Below, one piece after another: positions 5,187-15,528 of a stretch of DNA of 64,000 bases. The notes below the pieces were generated by a model, which worked only from the letters and a program-made list of their open reading frames with translations, ran no database searches and was not told the origin of the DNA. The translations under genes were made by a program, and so were the position numbers. The DNA lies in assembly GCF_014170305.1 (NCBI RefSeq), contig NZ_LZZT01000048.1, positions 1-64,000 of the forward strand, written 5' to 3'. The stretch is from Achromobacter sp. UMC71. GTDB taxonomy: Bacteria; Pseudomonadota; Gammaproteobacteria; Burkholderiales; Burkholderiaceae_B. How positions within the stretch are numbered: position 1 is the first letter of the stretch; every line of letters starts with the position of its first letter.

Positions 5187-5255
5187 ATGCCCTATCTTGG
5201 CATTTGACGATGCCCAATTTTGGCTTTCGCAGATACCCAATTTTGGCCTTTAGAA
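5187..5255 (+). repeat. Three tandem 23-bp iterons (putative replication origin)
   Basis: Three directly abutting 23-bp units occupy 5187-5209, 5210-5232 and 5233-5255. Their shared core is CCCAATTTTGGC (CCCTATCTTGGC in the first), preceded by ATG or ATA and followed by a TTT-containing segment. Exact 23-bp spacing, about two helical turns, is typical of Rep-binding iterons. They lie directly upstream of a gene for a replication-like protein and beside an AT-rich stretch, so a plasmid-type origin inside the integrated element is the simplest reading. Confidence 0.7.
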
Positions 5256-7156: not shown

Positions 7157-8148
7157 GTCGAGTCATTGATGGGATTCTGAAAGACTGGGGCGAACGCATC
7201 TATACCAAGCCCGTCACCAGCCAAGGGACAAAGCGCACAGTGACGCGGTCACGCACGTCGCCGCCGTCCAAGCCGCTACTGTTGACCGGTAGCGCTCGCG
7301 TTCGCGACAAGTTGATGCTGACCACCCGCAAAGCGCCCGAAGTCATGGTGAAGATCTCCGGTGGCGGCAAAGGCATCGCGCAGGTCAAAGCGCACCTCGA
7401 CTACATATCGCGCAACGGCCTGGTAGAACTGGAGAACGAAGACGGCGAAATCATCCTTGGCCGTGAAGCGGTGCAGGACGTGCGCGACGAATGGAAAAGC
7501 GGCCAGTATGGCTTGCCTGACAACGGCACGCGCCGCGAAACGTTCAATATCGTGCTGTCCATGCCCCCTGGCACCGACCGGCGCGCAGTCAATGATGCCA
7601 TCCGTGCATTCGCGAAAGCAGAGTTCGGCGACAACCATGCGTATGTCTTCGCCATTCATGACGATGAAGCGCATCCCCACGGCCACCTTTGCGTCAAGGC
7701 TCTGGGCATCGACGGCAGCCGGCTCAATCCGAGAAAAGCCGACCTGCAACGATGGAGAGAACGCTTCGCCGAAGCGCTGGGTGAACAAGGCATCGAGGCC
7801 AACGCCACACCGCGCAGGGCGCGGTCACACACGCGCGTTACCGTCAAGCAGGCGACGCGACATGCCGCCAAGCGTGGCAAGAGCACCAAAGCGACCGAGC
7901 GGGAACAGCGCAGGCGTTCCGGCGTTTCACGCGCCATCAGGAATGGCTACGGGCACATCGCAAAAGCCTTGGCCGCTGGTGACGACAAGGACAAATCGCT
8001 TGCCCTGAAAATTGTTCGGTTCCTCGATCCCACGCAGGACAGGAAGCTACAGGCTCCACAGCATAGCCAGAGCGACACCGAAGCGACCAAGGACGCTCAG
8101 CGACTGGATAAGACCCACCGTTCAGGCAAAGACAACCTGAGCCGTTAA
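7153..8148 (+). CDS. mobA: MobP-type relaxase (MobA/VirD2 family)
   Basis: The 331-aa relaxase should nick one strand at oriT and stay covalently bound through a tyrosine. The candidate nucleophile is in HLDYISRNG (near residue 84). The metal-binding three-His motif is clear in FAIHDDEAHPHGHLCVKA (about residues 172-188). A basic C-terminal region follows (RRARSHTRVTVKQATRHAAK), probably for DNA contact. There is no primase or helicase extension and no VirD4-type coupling protein nearby, so transfer must rely on a helper. It is coupled to mobC by ATGA. Confidence 0.9.
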   Translation: MSRVIDGILKDWGERIYTKPVTSQGTKRTVTRSRTSPPSKPLLLTGSARVRDKLMLTTRKAPEVMVKISGGGKGIAQVKAHLDYISRNGLVELENEDGEIILGREAVQDVRDEWKSGQYGLPDNGTRRETFNIVLSMPPGTDRRAVNDAIRAFAKAEFGDNHAYVFAIHDDEAHPHGHLCVKALGIDGSRLNPRKADLQRWRERFAEALGEQGIEANATPRRARSHTRVTVKQATRHAAKRGKSTKATEREQRRRSGVSRAIRNGYGHIAKALAAGDDKDKSLALKIVRFLDPTQDRKLQAPQHSQSDTEATKDAQRLDKTHRSGKDNLSR

Positions 8149-8175
8149 CTTGATTGCGCAAGAAGGACCATAAAG

Positions 8176-8433
8176 ATGGCTTTACGCTACGACGCCCTGC
8201 AAGACTACTGCGATGATCCAGCGCGCACTGGTGACGTGCAGATCATCCTGTATGCGCACTACTGGAAGGGCTTTGCCTTGGCCGTACAGAACGGCACTAC
8301 AGAGTATCCCGTCATGGATGACAAGGGCCGGCCGTTCCGATTCCGAACAGTAGAAATGGCACTGGCGGAGTTGGCGAATATCTCGTACCTGTCAGACCGC
8401 ATCATCATTGACCGCAAGATGTGGTGGCCGTAG
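8176..8433 (+). CDS. Hypothetical 85-aa protein of the mob operon
   Basis: A small acidic/aromatic protein starts 27 bp after the relaxase stop with a reasonable Shine-Dalgarno (AGAAGGA). No transmembrane segment and no known motif are visible. Its size and place, between the relaxase and a terminator-like hairpin, suggest it is the last gene of the rep-mob operon. I do not recognise the family. Confidence 0.6.
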   Translation: MALRYDALQDYCDDPARTGDVQIILYAHYWKGFALAVQNGTTEYPVMDDKGRPFRFRTVEMALAELANISYLSDRIIIDRKMWWP

Positions 8434-8459
8434 TCGGGAAGCTACTTTGCATTAACCGT

Positions 8460-8490
8460 AAGTACAATCAACTTCGGTTGTACTTTTAAC
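8460..8490 (+). terminator. Hairpin terminator at the end of the mob operon
   Basis: AAGTACAA (8460-8467) pairs with TTGTACTT (8479-8486) and is followed by TT within a short T-rich tail. Confidence 0.55.
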
Positions 8491-8538
8491 TAATACGAAC
8501 GCTGCAACCGCCCCAAGAACGCTTCGGCGTACCGGGTG

Positions 8539-8674
8539 CCGGCCCGAAAAGAAGGGCCTGACGCGGGGAGATAGGCCGCGTGACCGCACCGAAGAGTAGT
8601 GTGCTGACTGCCTCGGAAAAGTTGAGGATGACTGCCCCGGAAAAGCAGGGGATGACAACACGGTAGAGACGTGT
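8539..8674 (+). repeat. Array of five to six ~24-nt hairpin units upstream of virB5
   Basis: Consecutive units each form a short hairpin followed directly, or after one base, by TGAC. The TGAC motifs start at 8559, 8581, 8605, 8629 and 8653, a spacing of 22, 24, 24 and 24. Stems differ but stay paired: GGCCC/GGGCC (8541-8558), CGCGG/CCGCG (8562-8580), GCAC/GTGC (8586-8604), CCTC/GAGG (8611-8627), CCCC/GGGG (8635-8651); a sixth hairpin ACACG/CGTGT (8658-8674) lacks TGAC. Loops are purine-rich, three of them beginning with GGA. Pairing preserved while sequence changes argues for a selected structure in RNA or single-stranded DNA. Function unknown. Confidence 0.65.
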
Positions 8675-8796
8675 CTTTGAAAGCCCCAAGAACACTGAAC
8701 ATGTGTGCTGGGCAAGAGCCTTAAATAAGCTCCCAATGACCGGCTGGAAAGACGGCCCAGCGTTCGCCATCAACCCTACTAAATGGAGTGGCGAAC

Positions 8797-9522
8797 ATGA
8801 AGAAATTATTAGCATCTTGCATTCTGGCCGTCGGCATTGCCGCGTCATCGGCTGCCTTCGCGCAAATCCCCGTGACGGATGGCGCTTCCATCGCCAAGAG
8901 CGTGGAAAACCAGATCGAAACGATGGCGAAGTGGAAGATGCAGTACGACCAGATGGTCAGCCAGATCGACCAGATGAAACAGCAATACGCTGCGGTCACC
9001 GGCGCACGCGGTATGGGCGAACTGTTCAACAACCCGCAACTGCGGGACTACCTGCCGCAAGACTGGCAAGGCGTCTACGATTCCGTCAAATCAAGTGGCT
9101 ATGCCGGCCTGAGCGGGCGCGCTGAGTCCATCTACAACGACAACCAGGTGTATGACGCATGCACCGGCTTTGCCCTGACAGAGCAGCGCACGAACTGCGA
9201 AGCCCAAGCCGTCAAAGGTGCTCAGGATAAAGCCTTCGCGCTAGACGCCTACGACGCGGCGAAGAACCGCCTCAGCCAAATCGACCAGTTGATGCGGCAA
9301 ATCAACCAGACCCAGGACCCGAAGGCTATCGCTGAACTGCAAGGCCGCATCGCCGCCGAGCAAGCCATGATTCAGAACGAGCAGACCAAGCTACAGATGT
9401 ACCAAATGGTCGCGGCAGCCGAAGACCGCCTACAGCAACAACGGCAGAAGGAGATCAACGCAAAGATTGTTGATCAACGGGACTACCCCACCCTTCAAGT
9501 CTTCAACCCGCTTGCTCGCTAA
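8797..9522 (+). CDS. virB5: VirB5-like type IV secretion pilus-tip protein
   Basis: The 241-aa protein has an N-terminal signal peptide (MKKLLASCILAVG...AAFA, cleavage near residue 22), then long Gln-rich helical and coiled-coil stretches (VSQIDQMKQQYAAV, AAEDRLQQQRQKEIN), as in VirB5/TrbJ proteins that cap the conjugative pilus and contact recipient cells. I chose the ATG at 8797 because GGAG precedes it by 8 nt; a GTG at 8788 also fits the frame. It is followed by a small membrane protein, eexN and virB6 in one direction. The classic order virB5-eex-virB6 is kept, but all other secretion genes are absent. Confidence 0.82.
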   Translation: MKKLLASCILAVGIAASSAAFAQIPVTDGASIAKSVENQIETMAKWKMQYDQMVSQIDQMKQQYAAVTGARGMGELFNNPQLRDYLPQDWQGVYDSVKSSGYAGLSGRAESIYNDNQVYDACTGFALTEQRTNCEAQAVKGAQDKAFALDAYDAAKNRLSQIDQLMRQINQTQDPKAIAELQGRIAAEQAMIQNEQTKLQMYQMVAAAEDRLQQQRQKEINAKIVDQRDYPTLQVFNPLAR

Positions 9523-9532
9523 GGAGGAAATC

Positions 9533-9979
9533 ATGGCACCGTTCTACGCAATAACACTGGTCGTGGTCGTATTACTTTGCTTTCCCATCTATCGTTTTTG
9601 GGCTTGTGCTCGCCGCTTAAGTCCCGAGCATTACCGAGAGCTTATACGGCGTGCTCCGCTGATGAGAACCCTAGATGCCATTGCATTCCTCATGGCTGCG
9701 TTCACGGCCTACTACGCAGCTATGGGATTGTGGGGATTCACGCTCCCACCCCTTGACGACGAACCCTTGCCGGCATGGATGAATATCCTGCTATCGGCGG
9801 TTACGAGCGTTGGCTGCTTCGGCGTCATTTGGACAAACGCGCCAAATCGCTTCACGGACCCGACATGGGGTGGCATGCGCGAAAGCGTCGTGCGAACCCT
9901 TGCAGCGCTACGCATTATTGAGGCCGCCGAGGTGGCCCACGCACTCAACATCATCAACACACGTGAGGCGCACAAATGA
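9533..9979 (+). CDS. Small multi-pass membrane protein between virB5 and eexN
   Basis: The 148-aa protein has about three hydrophobic helices (N-terminal FYAITLVVVVLLCFPIY, a middle one near 50-75, and one near 88-105), then a cytoplasmic-looking amphipathic tail. It starts after a strong AAGGAGGAAA site, 10 bp past the virB5 stop, and its end overlaps eexN by 4 bp. I do not recognise the family. The position inside a virB5-eexN-virB6 block suggests a channel or exclusion accessory; this is inference from context only. Confidence 0.65.
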   Translation: MAPFYAITLVVVVLLCFPIYRFWACARRLSPEHYRELIRRAPLMRTLDAIAFLMAAFTAYYAAMGLWGFTLPPLDDEPLPAWMNILLSAVTSVGCFGVIWTNAPNRFTDPTWGGMRESVVRTLAALRIIEAAEVAHALNIINTREAHK

Positions 9980-10236
9980 AAAACACCATCTTCCCTTTCC
10001 TTGTCGTTCTCACACTCGCAGCTTGCAGTGATAACACCCCGGTTCAAACTGTCGATTGGTACAAGGCGCATGACCCCGAACGCAAGGCAATGATCGCGAA
10101 ATGCGAAGCTAATCCAGGCGAGCTCGCCGCCTCCGCCAATTGCATCAATGCCAAGACCGCAGAGAACCACCTAGCCGTCGATAAGCGTGGCTATTTCGAC
10201 CTTTCGCCTATTAATCCATTGAAGGGAGGCCAATAG
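9976..10236 (+). CDS. eexN: EexN-family entry-exclusion lipoprotein
   Basis: The 86-aa lipoprotein has a short signal ending in the lipobox LAAC (Cys at about residue 18). Its mature part carries motifs of EexN proteins of IncN/P-type conjugation systems: VDWYKAHDPERKAMIAKC, then NPGEL and a second Cys in NCINAK. EexN blocks entry of the same type of conjugative DNA into the cell. It overlaps the upstream membrane gene (ATGA) and ends 1 bp before the virB6 start region. In this element it could exclude competing or redundant helper elements. Confidence 0.82.
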   Translation: MKNTIFPFLVVLTLAACSDNTPVQTVDWYKAHDPERKAMIAKCEANPGELAASANCINAKTAENHLAVDKRGYFDLSPINPLKGGQ

Positions 10237-10237
10237 T

Positions 10238-11290
10238 ATGAAATTTGCGCTTTTTCAATGGGTAGGTGACAGTCTGGATTCCATGCTGAACTCCTTTATT
10301 TCGGGAACAGCATCTAATGTGATTTTCGGATTTCAGATGCTGATGCTAACGGGAGTCACCCTGTATATCACCATGACCGGTTACGCGATCAGCATGGGGG
10401 CAGTGGAGGCTCCGTTCCGGACGTTCCTCAAGCAATGCGTGAAGATCATCATCATCGCGACATTTTGCATGACGGCAGACTCCTATACGGCGACCATTGT
10501 GTCTGCCATTCAGGGACTGGAAACGGGTCTGGCCGACATCATGTCTACGTCCAACGCTCAGGCTATGAATATCTATCAAGTGCTCGACAACTCAGCCGAC
10601 AAAGGGCTAAATGTCGCCTATGACATGCTCGGCAAGGTTGCGAAACGGGAGTTTTACGAAATCGGCCATATGGCCTGGGATACCGTGAACGCGCTATTAA
10701 TGTCCGTCGCGGTATTTTTAGTTCACCTGCCGGCCGCAGGTACGATTATTTTGGCGAAACTATTTTTAGGTGTGATGCTCGGAATTGGCCCAGTTTTTAT
10801 TGCTGCATTGATGTTCCCGATCACCGCAAAATGGTTCGACAAGTGGTTTCAACAGGTAATGACATACATATTGGAGATTGCCATTTCCATGGTTGTCGTG
10901 TCAGTAGGAATGGGCCTATTCAAAACACTCTACGACAAGTTGATTGGGACAAATACAGATATTCCTATAAATTCTTTCTTCTATATCATCATGCTGGCAG
11001 CTCTAATCTTCTTTGCTCATAGGAAGACGAGCGGCTTGGGTGCTCAACTAGCGGGGGGTCTCGCCTTTGAAGCCGTTACGCTCAGAAGCATGGCACAGGG
11101 CATGGGTAATGTGGTGAATCCCAAGACAACGCGTCGCGATATGCAGTCTGGCATGATGGTCACTGCGGGCCGCAGTAACCACATGATTGCAGGCAACACC
11201 ATGTGGAACCCGGCCTATCGTCAACACGTCTTGCAGAACATGGGCAAGCACTGGGGACCGGCAACCGGTGGTTCAGTCAACGGCAAGTGA
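10238..11290 (+). CDS. virB6: VirB6-like inner-membrane channel protein
   Basis: The 350-aa protein has several strongly hydrophobic segments (about 25-50, 65-80, 145-200, 205-230, 240-260). It carries the conserved VirB6 region GIGPVFIAALMFPITAKWFD and WFQQVMTYILE in the middle, and a Gly/Met-rich cytoplasmic tail. VirB6 forms the inner-membrane part of the type IV secretion channel that passes DNA from the relaxosome toward VirB8/VirB5. It directly follows eexN and is closed by a strong terminator. VirB3/4, B8-B11 and VirD4 are not present in the window, so this subunit can work only inside a helper's apparatus. Confidence 0.85.
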   Translation: MKFALFQWVGDSLDSMLNSFISGTASNVIFGFQMLMLTGVTLYITMTGYAISMGAVEAPFRTFLKQCVKIIIIATFCMTADSYTATIVSAIQGLETGLADIMSTSNAQAMNIYQVLDNSADKGLNVAYDMLGKVAKREFYEIGHMAWDTVNALLMSVAVFLVHLPAAGTIILAKLFLGVMLGIGPVFIAALMFPITAKWFDKWFQQVMTYILEIAISMVVVSVGMGLFKTLYDKLIGTNTDIPINSFFYIIMLAALIFFAHRKTSGLGAQLAGGLAFEAVTLRSMAQGMGNVVNPKTTRRDMQSGMMVTAGRSNHMIAGNTMWNPAYRQHVLQNMGKHWGPATGGSVNGK

Positions 11291-11311
11291 CGTGCGTGTT
11301 GGCATCCGCAT

Positions 11312-11338
11312 AGGCCTTGCCATCAGCAAGGCCTTTTC
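11312..11338 (+). terminator. Strong terminator after virB6
   Basis: A perfect 9-bp stem AGGCCTTGC/GCAAGGCCT with loop CATCA is followed by TTTT. Confidence 0.85.
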
Positions 11339-11339
11339 A

Positions 11340-11980
11340 TTTATCGCCGCGCATACTCCGCGCTTCGCTTGGGCAACCCCTTCGGTTGCATCCCGCGTCC
11401 GTTCTTGCCGGACTGGCTGCGGGGGCAGGCCCGGCGGCCTTGCCTTGTTCCTACCCCCTGCCGACAGGCTGCATGGCCTCAGACGCGTCAAGGGTGAAGG
11501 CTACGCCCGGCATCCTCACCGTTCCCTACGCCTTGCTTCGGGCTGCGGCCTCCGGTCCCGCCCTTGACACCTCTTCCAGCCGGAGAATCACCAGCTTCGA
11601 CCTCATACCGGCTTTTGATAGCACGGATGACGGGTCAAGGGGTTGGTGCGGCCCGCAGCCTTATGGGCGAGGACACGGCCCCTTGACGCGGCAGGAGTGA
11701 CAACACGCTGCGCCCGGGGGAGGTGTTCAGGGCCGTCGGCCCGTAACCCCTGCCCCCGAGGCTCCCGCCGGCGAGGGTGGAGAGTCCAGAGAGGCAAAGC
11801 CTCTTTGGGAAGTGGCCTCGTTCGCAAATACCCGAGATAGCCGTCAATCGGGGAAATCTATTGGTTGGCAGAAAAACAAGACAATTTCTGCGCAAGGTCT
11901 TTTCTGTCGGCCTTGCCTCAAAGCCACAAAAAAATCCCACGTCTTGTAATATAGCGTTACCTAAAGCACGGGAGGCAACC
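11340..11980. other. GC-rich gene-free region with paired inverted repeats
   Basis: Many overlapping open frames exist on both strands, but none has a recognisable product. The region carries two sets of inverted repeats: GTCAAGGG (11487-11494) with CCCTTGAC (11561-11568), and GTCAAGGGG (11634-11642) with CCCCTTGAC (11679-11687). A hairpin AGAGGC/GCCTCT lies near 11787-11802. It may be a structured transfer or maintenance site; no role can be proven from sequence. Confidence 0.45.
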
Positions 11981-12389: not shown

Positions 12390-14096
12390 GTGAAAATCAG
12401 AAAAATAAAGATCACGAACTTTCGGGGCGTGAAAGAGCTTGACTGGAGCCTTCCCAACGCCGACATATTCTGCCTGATTGGGAAAGGGGATTCTTCAAAA
12501 TCCACCATTATTGAGGCCATCAGGTATGCCTTCTATCCTCAGTGGAACCTGACCCTAAGTGACGCCGATTTCTACCAGTGCAAGGTAGCCAACTCTATCA
12601 TCATAGAAATCACCATTGGAGCCTTGACCGAAGCCTTCTGCGCCTTGGACAAATACGGTCAGTACCTCCGTGGCTGGGATTCCGCAGCCCTCAAGCTCAC
12701 CGACGAGCCGGAAGACCACCTGGAGAGTGTCCTGACCGTGCGGCTTACGGTCGACAAAGATCTTGAGCCTAAGTGGATGGTTGTCTGTGATCGTCACCCT
12801 GACGGTGTTCAGTTCAAGCAGGGCGATAGGAACAAGGTCAGTGTCGGCCTCATTGGTGCCTATAGCGAGAAACAGTTTTCATGGGCTACAGGCACGGCGT
12901 TGGCGAAGCTCACTGAGGCCCAAAGTCTGAACGAGTTGCTGGCAACGGCCTCTCGCACGGCCAGAGCCTCTTTGGATGCGAACCGACCTGTCACTCTCAA
13001 GAACTTCGATGCTGCGGCTGAGAAGTCTCAAGACATCGCAAAGCTGTTGGGTGTGCCTGTATCGGAGGCTTACAAGGCTCATCTCGATCTGGCCTCTATC
13101 AACCTCAAGGTTGGCGGGCTGGTTCTCCATGACGGCGACATTCCTCTTCGTCAGCTAGGTCTGGGGTCACGGCGAATGCTGCTGTGCGGCATTCAGAAAA
13201 TGGGCCTGGAAGAAGGACACATCACTTTGTTTGACGAGGTGGAGTTCGGCTTGGAACCACACCGAATCACTAGGCTCATCAAACACGTGCGAGAAGACAA
13301 GAAAGGCCAATACTTCCTCACCACGCACTCGCCTACAGTTCTGCGGGAACTGACGGTCAATGACCTGTACATCGTTCACAGCAAGGCAGGAACCGTACGG
13401 GTCACTCCCGCTTACTGTGAAGGGTTGGCTGCTCACGAGGCGCAAGGAAGAATTCGTTCTAGTGCCGAGGCGTTCTTGTCGAAGAAGGTTGTGGTCTGTG
13501 AGGGAGCTACCGAGGTCGGGTTCATGAGGGGCTATGACGACTATCAGGTTGGCAAGGGCAACGATCCATTCTCCTATCACGGCGTGTCTTTGCTGAATGC
13601 AGGTGGGGCGAGCAAGATTAAAGCTCTGGCAGAGGCTTTCAAGCTTCTCGGTTATGACGTCTGCGTTGTAGCTGACGGGGATGCAGAGAAACAGTTTTCT
13701 CCTGCTCATGAGGCTGAGTTGAGAGACAAGGGCATTTCGGTCCACGTATGGACCGACAAGCTCTCATTGGAGCAAAGAGCATTTCAGGACTTGCCGTGGA
13801 TCAGCGTGATTTCGAGTGTGCAACTCGCCCAAACTGTTCCCAGTCTGTCTGTCTACGACAACGTGCGCTCTTGGTATAAGAAGCCACTTGATGAGGACGT
13901 TATCAAGTGGGAAGACAGCCCTGAGCTGAGGCTTGCTATCGGAAATGCAGCGAAAAGCAGCGACTGGTTTAAGGACATTACCCGTGGCGATTCGTGGATG
14001 CAGACTATCAGCCCTGCGTTCGATGACGCAGATTTCTCAAAGAAGGACATGGCCGCGAAGCTCGCCCAGCTTTGGGCTTGGGCAGAGCGTGTCTGA
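12390..14096 (+). CDS. gajA: GajA-like OLD-family ATPase/TOPRIM nuclease (Gabija)
   Basis: The 568-aa protein matches the class 2 OLD architecture. An ABC-type ATPase occupies about 1-360: Walker A GKGDSSKST (variant), signature-like LGLGSRRML, Walker B ITLFDEVEFGLEP, switch His in LTTHSPTVLREL. A TOPRIM nuclease follows (about 365-568) with the acidic motif VVCEGATEVGF and the metal-binding VVADGDAEKQ. GajA of Gabija is close to this length and cuts DNA when nucleotide pools fall during phage attack. The start is GTG at 12390 after GAAGGA. The Walker A Gly-Asp-Ser-Ser variant is less canonical than GxNxxGKS. It overlaps the helicase gene by 8 bp, the expected Gabija order. Confidence 0.85.
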   Translation: MKIRKIKITNFRGVKELDWSLPNADIFCLIGKGDSSKSTIIEAIRYAFYPQWNLTLSDADFYQCKVANSIIIEITIGALTEAFCALDKYGQYLRGWDSAALKLTDEPEDHLESVLTVRLTVDKDLEPKWMVVCDRHPDGVQFKQGDRNKVSVGLIGAYSEKQFSWATGTALAKLTEAQSLNELLATASRTARASLDANRPVTLKNFDAAAEKSQDIAKLLGVPVSEAYKAHLDLASINLKVGGLVLHDGDIPLRQLGLGSRRMLLCGIQKMGLEEGHITLFDEVEFGLEPHRITRLIKHVREDKKGQYFLTTHSPTVLRELTVNDLYIVHSKAGTVRVTPAYCEGLAAHEAQGRIRSSAEAFLSKKVVVCEGATEVGFMRGYDDYQVGKGNDPFSYHGVSLLNAGGASKIKALAEAFKLLGYDVCVVADGDAEKQFSPAHEAELRDKGISVHVWTDKLSLEQRAFQDLPWISVISSVQLAQTVPSLSVYDNVRSWYKKPLDEDVIKWEDSPELRLAIGNAAKSSDWFKDITRGDSWMQTISPAFDDADFSKKDMAAKLAQLWAWAERV

Positions 14097-15528
14097 GGAA
14101 CTGGCTCTCAAGCTCAACGACTTCACTACCAAGGGGTATGTGATAGCGCCGGCCGGCTATGGAAAGACACACCTTATCGCCATGGCGGTGAAAGCGGCTA
14201 GCAAGCGGCAGCTCGTGTTGACTCACACCTTTGCGGGTGTGAACTCCATCAGGGCCAAGATGAACAATCTTGGTGTGCCTGCTTCGAAGTACCATATTGA
14301 CACGATTGCGAGCTGGTCCCTTCGGCTCTGTCTCGCCTACCCGAAGACTTCGGCGTGGAAAGCAGAGCACCCTACGGGTAAGCAGTGGAACAAGCTCTAC
14401 GAGTGCTGTTCAGAGCTGCTTAGGAAGCAGTTCATTCGCCGCGTTGTCGCAGCCACTTATGCCGGCGTCTACGTGGACGAGTACCAGGACTGCTCCGATC
14501 TGCAGCATTCCCTAGTCTGTTCGTTTGCTGAGTTCATGCCGTGCCGAATTCTAGGCGATCCTATGCAGGCCATCTTTGACTTCGGTGGCGACGAAGGCAA
14601 GCCCGTTGATTGGACGGTAAGTGTCTATCCGGCCTTCACTTGCCTTGGTCAGCTAGAGACTCCATGGCGCTGGAAAACGACTGGAGATCCGACCCTTGGA
14701 GCTTGGCTCAAGAAGGCGAGAGAGACACTAAAACAGGGGCAGAAGATCAATATTTCAAACGGCCTGCCTGCATGTGTGAAACGTGTTCCCACCACCCCAG
14801 AATTCTTGGCGTCAAAGCAGTACTCCTCACTGATGGATTTGTTGGACCATCAGGAGAGTGTGATTGCCCTTCATTGCGGCGACCAGCAGTCCAAGAACAA
14901 GACCCATCTCTTGGCAAGAACCATGGGTGGACGGTTTTCTTCCATTGAAGAAGTTGAAGGCAAAGACCTTCACTCGTTCATCAGGAGACTGGTTTCAGCC
15001 AAGACACCCCAGCAAAGCTTTCTTCTGGCTTTGGATTTTTCCAAGAAGTGCTTCACCGGAGTGGGCGAGATCTTGACCGCCGGCACTAAGAGAGGCGAGG
15101 TCGCGAAGCAGAGCAAAGGAACCAAATATCCCTTGGTTCTTCATGCTGCGAATATCTACCTCAAAGAACCGACAAGTGCGCACCTTAGAGCTTTCTTCTT
15201 GGCGCTGAAAGCGAATCCCGATACATCAGCCTACCGGCGCGACTTGCTGTATCGCTTCTTCAATATCTTGAAAATTCACATTGACGGGGGAGCGGCGACA
15301 TTGACGGAGGCAGCAAAATTGTACCAACGAGACATGAGGCACACGGGGCGACCGATCAGCCACCGCAAGCTCATCGGCACAACTCTACTGGTCAAGGGGT
15401 TGGAATACGACCATGCAGTCATCCTTGACGCTGACACACTGGACGCCAAGGATCTGTACGTTGCAATGACCCGTGGGTCCAAGTCATTGACGATCATTAG
15501 TTCCAAACACGAATTGCCTGTGAAGTAG
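14089..15528 (+). CDS. gajB: GajB-like UvrD/Rep-type helicase (Gabija)
   Basis: The superfamily 1 helicase has about 479 residues, as expected for GajB. Motifs in order: I, APAGYGKTH; Ia, VLTHTFAGVNSI; II, VYVDEYQDC; III, RILGDPMQAIFDF; IV, ETPWRW; V, LLVKGLEYDHAV; VI, YVAMTRGSKSL. I chose the GTG at 14089, where the protein reads MSEELALKLNDF and which overlaps the gajA stop; an upstream ATG in frame would read through gajA and is unlikely. GajA and GajB form a large complex in known systems, so translational coupling makes sense. Together they are probably the main anti-phage cargo of the element. Confidence 0.85.
   Translation: MSEELALKLNDFTTKGYVIAPAGYGKTHLIAMAVKAASKRQLVLTHTFAGVNSIRAKMNNLGVPASKYHIDTIASWSLRLCLAYPKTSAWKAEHPTGKQWNKLYECCSELLRKQFIRRVVAATYAGVYVDEYQDCSDLQHSLVCSFAEFMPCRILGDPMQAIFDFGGDEGKPVDWTVSVYPAFTCLGQLETPWRWKTTGDPTLGAWLKKARETLKQGQKINISNGLPACVKRVPTTPEFLASKQYSSLMDLLDHQESVIALHCGDQQSKNKTHLLARTMGGRFSSIEEVEGKDLHSFIRRLVSAKTPQQSFLLALDFSKKCFTGVGEILTAGTKRGEVAKQSKGTKYPLVLHAANIYLKEPTSAHLRAFFLALKANPDTSAYRRDLLYRFFNILKIHIDGGAATLTEAAKLYQRDMRHTGRPISHRKLIGTTLLVKGLEYDHAVILDADTLDAKDLYVAMTRGSKSLTIISSKHELPVK

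Follow-up and report, generated by a model that had tools for sequence, protein, structure and literature searches.

A periodic array of small hairpins upstream of virB5 in Achromobacter sp. UMC71 probably belongs to a structured RNA leader that acts in cis and would gate translation of a virB5–X–eexN–virB6 cassette on an integrative mobilizable element, as judged from sequence comparison and predicted folding. Within the window (the whole stretch of DNA analysed, 64,000 nucleotides), the leader spans positions 8496–8796. A head motif occurs in it twice, together with a set of hairpins, a long-range helix (P0) and a further hairpin in which the Shine–Dalgarno (SD) sequence just before virB5 is occluded. 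Comparison of relatives shows that the two heads, a variable hairpin set, P0 and the SD-occluding hairpin are conserved with compensatory changes in the window's class of leaders. The initial annotation had described only the array, at 8539–8674; the array is there as described, but these limits are too narrow for the structure as a whole. Neither the heads nor P0, the SD hairpin or the association with a type IV secretion system (T4SS) cassette had been recognised.

Hairpin Array in the Window

The array lies on the + strand and comprises five hairpins associated with TGAC (8541–8656) and a sixth without it. Hairpin A (8541–8558; loop GAAAAGAA) forms a unit with TGAC at 8559 (8541–8562). Mini-hairpins 2 (8561–8584), 3 (8585–8608), 4 (8611–8632) and 5 (8635–8656) have stem-loops at 8561–8581, 8585–8603, 8611–8627 and 8635–8651, with TGAC at 8581, 8605, 8629 and 8653, respectively, and mini-hairpin 6 (8658–8674) lacks TGAC. 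Stems of the first five hairpins are 4–6 bp and their loops 8–9 nt; TGAC lies 0–2 nt past each of the five hairpins or overlaps the final stem base, and recurs at steps of 22, 24, 24 and 24 nt. Two units, mini-hairpins 4 and 5, are within a tandem repeat (8605–8656).

The regularity of this pattern, as first reported, is real: at most two hairpins with TGAC occur in any of 2000 dinucleotide shuffles of 8539–8690, compared with five in the actual sequence. Among 3362 stretches of 152 nt on both strands of the window, more than two such hairpins are present in only three overlapping stretches, all at the array. Pairing is lost when half-units are swapped within the array (20 of 20,000 permutations are as good, with unit limits set by eye). 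The leader as a whole does not fold with unusual stability (minimum free energy z-score −1.09 for 8505–8790, which leaves the P0 5′ arm outside, and −1.52 for a longer stretch), so the signal of the array resides in pattern and conservation, not in free energy.

CsrB/RsmZ-type and lambda boxB-type protein-binding RNAs carry repeated hairpins or purine-rich loops, as does the array. The suggestion in the initial annotation that the array is a CsrA/RsmA-binding array or sponge rested on GGA, which is present in three of the six window units and also in the SD sequence itself. GGA is, however, found in only 12 of 24 distinct units, as opposed to 21 of 24 for GA(N0-2)AG (anywhere in the unit), and is absent from the strongly conserved hairpin A. 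Because GGA is not conserved, and because the loop consensus is GA(N0-2)AG unlike that of CsrB/RsmZ-type RNAs, CsrA/RsmA binding is a weak and very unlikely explanation.

Organization of the Leader

The leader begins with the 5′ arm of P0 (CGAACGCTG, 8496–8504), the 9-nt complement of which is the 3′ arm (CAGCGTTCG, 8758–8766); P0 joins the bases immediately before the first head to those immediately before the SD hairpin, and the final five bases of the 3′ arm are common to the SD hairpin. Head copy 1 (CCCCAAGAACGC-TTCG-GCGTACCGGGTGC, 8511–8540), included in alignment A2, is matched by the model R1 at 8511–8564 with 79.9 bits, a score that is not independent because R1 was built with this copy. 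Head copy 2 (8684–8715) is divergent and gives a weak R1 match at 8684–8742 (19.2 bits, E 0.065); by the same model, second head copies are stronger in many relatives than in the window. A hairpin search identifies hairpin C (GAGC/GCTC, 8716–8732) and hairpin D (loop GAAAGA, 8742–8757) between this head and the P0 3′ arm. The SD hairpin (8762–8796) pairs GTTCGCCA (8762–8769) with TGGCGAAC (8789–8796) and holds the SD sequence GGAG (8785–8788) in its loop. All of these features are on the + strand. An inverted repeat (AAGTACAA/TTGTACTT, 8460–8485) is located just 5′ of the leader and is largely kept in Achromobacter-type islands. Upstream of plasmid leaders (L018, L057, L003), inspection by eye reveals a TATACT-like box inside ACTCA/TGAGT inverted repeats and a further inverted repeat, TGCCAAAAC/GTTTTGGCA; together these possibly form a regulated promoter.

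Relatives and Classes of Leaders

Relatives of the leader sit on mobilizable plasmids and chromosomal islands. A search of a plasmid collection for distant DNA similarity finds matches in 19 of 72,556 records, and in all ten of the 19 that were inspected the match is directly 5′ of a virB5-type gene. A VirB5 search identifies 51 loci in genome contigs and one in viral contigs; Verticiella, Achromobacter and allied genera carry the closest relatives. R1 was run against 398, 200, 399 and 369 genomes (overlapping sets, each including the genome of the window) and gave strong matches in that genome, in G130, G494 and seven other genomes of the family, and in G794, where the match is probably the AH1 plasmid record, with identical coordinates. 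Beside the ten strong matches outside the window's own genome, X and EexN are encoded in all ten cases and VirB5 in nine. Weak R1 matches without a cassette alongside (L078–L080 and L090–L093), a weak match at a virB4 locus about 1 kb past the virB5 start (L069, E 0.002), and several others with E above 0.3 were taken as chance. For its first 31,870 bases the window's contig is repeated without a difference in contig C25 of the assembly, and the two diverge thereafter; since C25 shares window positions 1–31870, the leader is present twice in the assembly.

Leaders fall into two classes. Class I has the order head (CCCYAAGAACGC-loop-GCGURCCGGGYGC), hairpin A, further hairpins, second head, more hairpins and SD hairpin; hairpin A has the loop GAAAAGAA in most class I leaders, followed by TGAC or a variant. 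Class II (L017, L018/L019, L035/L063, L043, L049/L110, L051, L057 and L109) has no recognisable head; its leaders combine a closing helix and an SD hairpin with stem-loops whose loops are of the GAACA or GAAAG type, as assigned by eye with support from pairing searches and folding. Leaders differ in how many hairpins separate the heads. These comparisons bear on the possibility of a metabolite or ion riboswitch, in which the heads with their conserved internal loops would act as tandem aptamers and the SD hairpin as the expression platform. Two head copies with invariant unpaired bases do precede an SD-occluding hairpin, but the variable hairpin count between heads and the existence of class II leaders without a recognisable head make a riboswitch improbable.

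Conservation of Structure

Among 26 copies of the head and hairpin A (24 distinct), 95.5% of cells are paired and 15 cells show a change in both partners. Covariation scores 0.206, compared with 0.089 after shuffling, and none of 500 shuffles attains the observed score; three doubly changed pairs are matched by 117 of 500 shuffles and further pair types by 133 of 500. The outer pairs of the head are uninformative because they are invariant. In an alignment of ten full short leaders (A5; 36 pairs, tested without the inner helix of head 2), 95.2% of cells are paired, whereas slid structures pair at most 42.5%. Double changes are present in 11 of the 36 pairs (equalled in one of 500 shuffles), and none of 500 shuffles reaches the covariation score; further pair types are matched by 233 of 500, and in hairpin B the paired fraction of cells falls to 76%. 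For the second hairpin, again in ten leaders, the partner half from the same leader pairs far better than those of other leaders (0 of 20,000 permutations, with limits set by eye). The leaders are kin, and these counts are not independent; the automatic hairpin list along the leaders also mis-assigns some stems.

P0 provides a further line of evidence. Across 14 class I representatives, within fixed search windows, a leader's own arms score 20.4, compared with 15.1 (sd 0.96) for permuted arms, and none of 20,000 permutations is as good. The arms are very unlike between leaders and yet remain paired through compensatory changes (CGAACGCTG/CAGCGTTCG, GGGGAAGCC/GGCTTCCCC, GGGACGAG/CTCGTCCC). L045 and L047 lack a P0 or have only a poor one; in L041 the helix comprises seven pairs, one of them G–U, and in L053 five. 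The class II arms GGG(Y)RTCG/CGATGCCC rank first among the pairings of L035, L043, L057, L109 and L110; in L017 and L018 they are outscored by longer chance matches. Folding assigns P0 a probability of at least 0.33 in only six of 19 leaders, and the minimum free energy z-scores of the leaders range from −2.97 to +0.12 (40 shuffles each).

Compensatory changes in the stems, P0 and SD hairpin of relatives thus bear out the original proposal of selection for structure, and the preservation of stems in homologues, the loss of which had been named as grounds for abandoning it, favours structure as well. An RNA-type leader before virB5, raised at first as one option, is also indicated at the level of sequence by this conserved compensatory pairing and by G–U pairs that point to RNA from the + strand.

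SD Hairpin and Its Predicted Competition with P0

The SD sequence is occluded in two unlike ways, either by GTTCGCC/GGCGAAC (or a TCACC/GGTGA variant) or by CTCCTN/NAGGAG-like pairs. The median of its mean unpaired probability is 0.03 in 33 leaders, compared with 0.46 in 83 control genes from four plasmid records, and the value is below 0.3 in 27 of the 33 leaders but only 21 of the 83 controls (Mann–Whitney p 1.8e-10, a value that is too small because the rows are related); six of the 33 leaders have values of 0.35–0.51. The SD hairpin has a probability of at least 0.52 in all 18 leaders where one is defined. One of its pairs changes from G–C to A–U in four of the ten rows of A5, with a covariation score reached by two of 500 shuffles; doubly changed pairs in this hairpin are matched by 468 of 500 shuffles and further pair types by 500 of 500.

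The overlap between the P0 3′ arm and the 5′ arm of the SD hairpin, surveyed in 19 of 21 leaders (one of which, L077, lacks an SD hairpin of this form), is 4–5 nt in nine leaders, 2 nt in two and 1 nt in seven. The nine with 4–5 nt are the GTTCGCC-type leaders examined. Folding of 8490–8830 gives probabilities of 0.73 for P0 and 0.27 for the SD hairpin, compared with 0.39 and 0.63 when other ends are used; the two helices of the window are therefore predicted to be in rough balance, which shifts with the ends chosen. In most other leaders folding prefers the SD hairpin. Because the helices could coexist in the seven of 18 leaders with a 1-nt overlap, and two more overlap by only 2 nt, switching between P0 and the SD hairpin is not a property shared by all leaders. 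In leaders of the window's type the two helices are modelled as competing for five bases, as in a translational switch; in others they barely overlap.

The virB5–X–eexN–virB6 Cassette

The leader is followed on the + strand by virB5 (8797–9522; PF07996, TIGR02791), gene X (9536–9979), eexN (9976–10236), encoding an entry-exclusion lipoprotein (NF033894, E 2.5e-22), and virB6 (10238–11290; PF04610, E 6.5e-44). Gene X encodes a 147-amino-acid protein that appears hydrophobic by eye and matches no Pfam or NCBIfam family. An intrinsic terminator-like site (11312–11334, + strand; 9-bp stem and T-rich tail) lies after the cassette; three such sites, two of them on the + strand, are found in 8790–11800, where 2.9 are expected.

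A transcriptional leader would be another way to control such an operon, with the hairpins loading a nut/put-like antitermination complex on RNA polymerase for read-through. Several hairpins do stand ahead of an operon, and hairpin A (GGCCTGAAAAGAAGGGCC in relatives) has what we take to be a resemblance to lambda boxB. On the other hand, 8000–9000 contains no terminator-like site on the + strand, the operon has just four genes, and antitermination leaves the conserved SD occlusion unexplained; it is regarded as unlikely. Translational gating, the preferred reading, includes the SD hairpin as one of its parts.

The association of the leader with the cassette was assessed in 69 tabulated loci (some records appear twice; L049 and L051 are counted as class II). 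Leaders are present in 44, of which 36 are class I and eight class II. None of the 44 contains virB4, though most loci cover only 6–13 kb; virB4 is also absent from the 64-kb window and from eight whole leader-bearing plasmid records (L015, L016, L104–L106, L108–L110), and is present in pIPO2T, whose whole record yields no R1 match at E values up to 1. Gene X is found in 41 of the 44 leader loci and in none of 21 virB4 loci, and the leader loci without X are all cut short (L053 inside virB5, L017 and L035 by the end of the record or contig). Of the 25 leaderless loci, 21 have virB4 and four do not; three of these four (L040, L056, L058) have X, with no recognised leader. In the PromA plasmids L022 and L023, virB5 directly follows virB4 inside a full operon, and no leader is present.

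Where the locus is long enough, the leader is 5′ of X–eexN–virB6, usually as virB5–X–eexN–virB6, and virB4 is lacking. No virB5 is found in G130 (L077/L102) or in the Acidovorax plasmid L109, where the leader precedes X–eexN–virB6; the leader thus goes with the cassette even where virB5 has been lost. At L053 (5940–6700), a leader-bearing cassette breaks off within virB5, close to what looks by eye like a tRNA sequence, and is therefore a relic.

The Mobilizable Element and orf85

A tRNA-Leu gene (1512–1596) is followed by a tyrosine-integrase-like gene (1732–2862), which we take to be a tyrosine integrase from its sequence. Downstream are genes for a MobC/NikA-like protein and a MobP1-like relaxase, then orf85, the leader and the cassette. 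The region from the tRNA-Leu gene to the end of the integrase-like gene (1512–2862) is likely to be the integration site of a mobilizable element; a search of the + strand farther downstream finds no exact copy of the end of the tRNA gene. From this gene content we infer an integrative mobilizable element. A 23-nt tandem repeat (2.8 copies, 5187–5251) lies upstream of the mobilization genes, and a Gabija anti-phage defence pair (12390–15528; GajA 12390–14096, GajB 13933–15528) adjoins the cassette.

The location on mobilizable elements, downstream of the relaxase gene in the window, is what would be seen if the array were a single-stranded DNA element for transfer or recombination, such as an origin or a relaxase or recombinase site, the last two of which the initial annotation also envisaged. 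Against this, the leader and cassette are constant while the mobilization genes differ: the window MobA is matched in only some leader loci, and the plasmids carry MobC with an LPD7 protein, though both kinds are typed MOBP. The position and orientation of the leader are fixed relative to the start codon, and the G–U pairs in its stems point to RNA. A DNA site accordingly finds little support and is extremely unlikely.

A small protein gene, orf85 (8176–8433, + strand), is located just 5′ of the leader and is a candidate partner because of its co-occurrence on plasmids. The window protein matches 26 of 72,556 plasmid records, including all 22 leader-bearing records then known (19 from the DNA search and three of class II). 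Two of the four further records were inspected and both carry class II leaders; of the other two, CP077786.1 shows no cassette in 36.6 of its 136.6 kb, and AP025672.1 is equal in length to NZ_CP097270.1. In many islands, too, orf85 is directly 5′ of the leader. With profile A3, orf85 is not found in six leader-bearing genomes (G494, G1300–G1304), which led to its rejection as a universal partner; it is thus only a candidate, and a general role is unlikely. Shared plasmid ancestry is a simple rival explanation for its co-occurrence with the leader.

Comparison with Known Systems

Rfam 15 at the gathering threshold matches only a tRNA in the window, and at a lax threshold 8400–8850 gives four sub-threshold matches, the best of which (E 0.081) is to a nematode snoRNA. 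Nor does such a leader appear among the papers listed from open-licence PMC text, in agreement with the earlier statement that no element of this form had been described. In SD-sequestering leaders and riboswitches, alternative pairing can likewise hide or free the SD; the present leader differs in its array of purine-loop hairpins, its two heads, and the lack of an Rfam match. The idea of a gate is already known; what appears to be new is this family of leaders, with its architecture and its association with conjugation satellites.

The cassette fits the SGI1/GISul2 kind of T4SS remodelling, by analogy, and has the trait of VirB5, VirB6 and exclusion genes without virB4. In SGI1, traN, traH and traG are reported to be induced by the helper's AcaCD; their products take the place of helper subunits and are presumed to disable entry exclusion (PMC5389848); the set includes a VirB6-type subunit by homology (PMC5704250). 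SGI1 is thus similar in being a mobilizable island with a few T4SS subunits, one VirB6-type, that are tied to entry exclusion, but it relies on an F-type system and the AcaCD transcriptional switch, in contrast to the P-type T4SS and RNA leader seen here (PMC5389848; PMC5704250). GISul2 and the "IncP island" carry genes for TrbJ (VirB5), a TrbK-like protein and TrbL (VirB6), and a review suggests that GISul2 reshapes MPF_T (PMC5704250). They resemble the present element in having a VirB5/exclusion/VirB6-type cassette without the rest of a T4SS, and differ in that their genes are related to those of IncP-1 and that X goes unmentioned in the relevant part of the source (PMC5704250).

Possible Mechanism and Implications

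By default, the SD hairpin would keep the first gene untranslated. A signal, which could be a protein recognising the repeated purine loops, may stabilize the folded leader and favour P0; in leaders of the window's type, P0 would then take five bases from the SD hairpin, freeing the SD for translation. The cassette may serve to fit the element's own VirB5 and VirB6 into the T4SS of a helper and to exclude rivals, in a manner like that of TraN, TraH and TraG of SGI1, and a tight gate would confine its expression to useful moments. More speculatively, and with doubt outweighing support, the leader family might be a conjugation-satellite sensor, in which the purine-loop hairpins count or bind a trans factor (perhaps orf85 or a helper product), P0 opens the SD, and the number of hairpins tunes the threshold.

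If the gate reading is true, RNA structure would control the hijacking of conjugation by mobilizable plasmids and islands, a task for which SGI1 uses a helper-encoded transcription activator. The leader would then be a marker for finding conjugation satellites, and would offer a testable handle on the timing of the expression of T4SS parts and exclusion genes.
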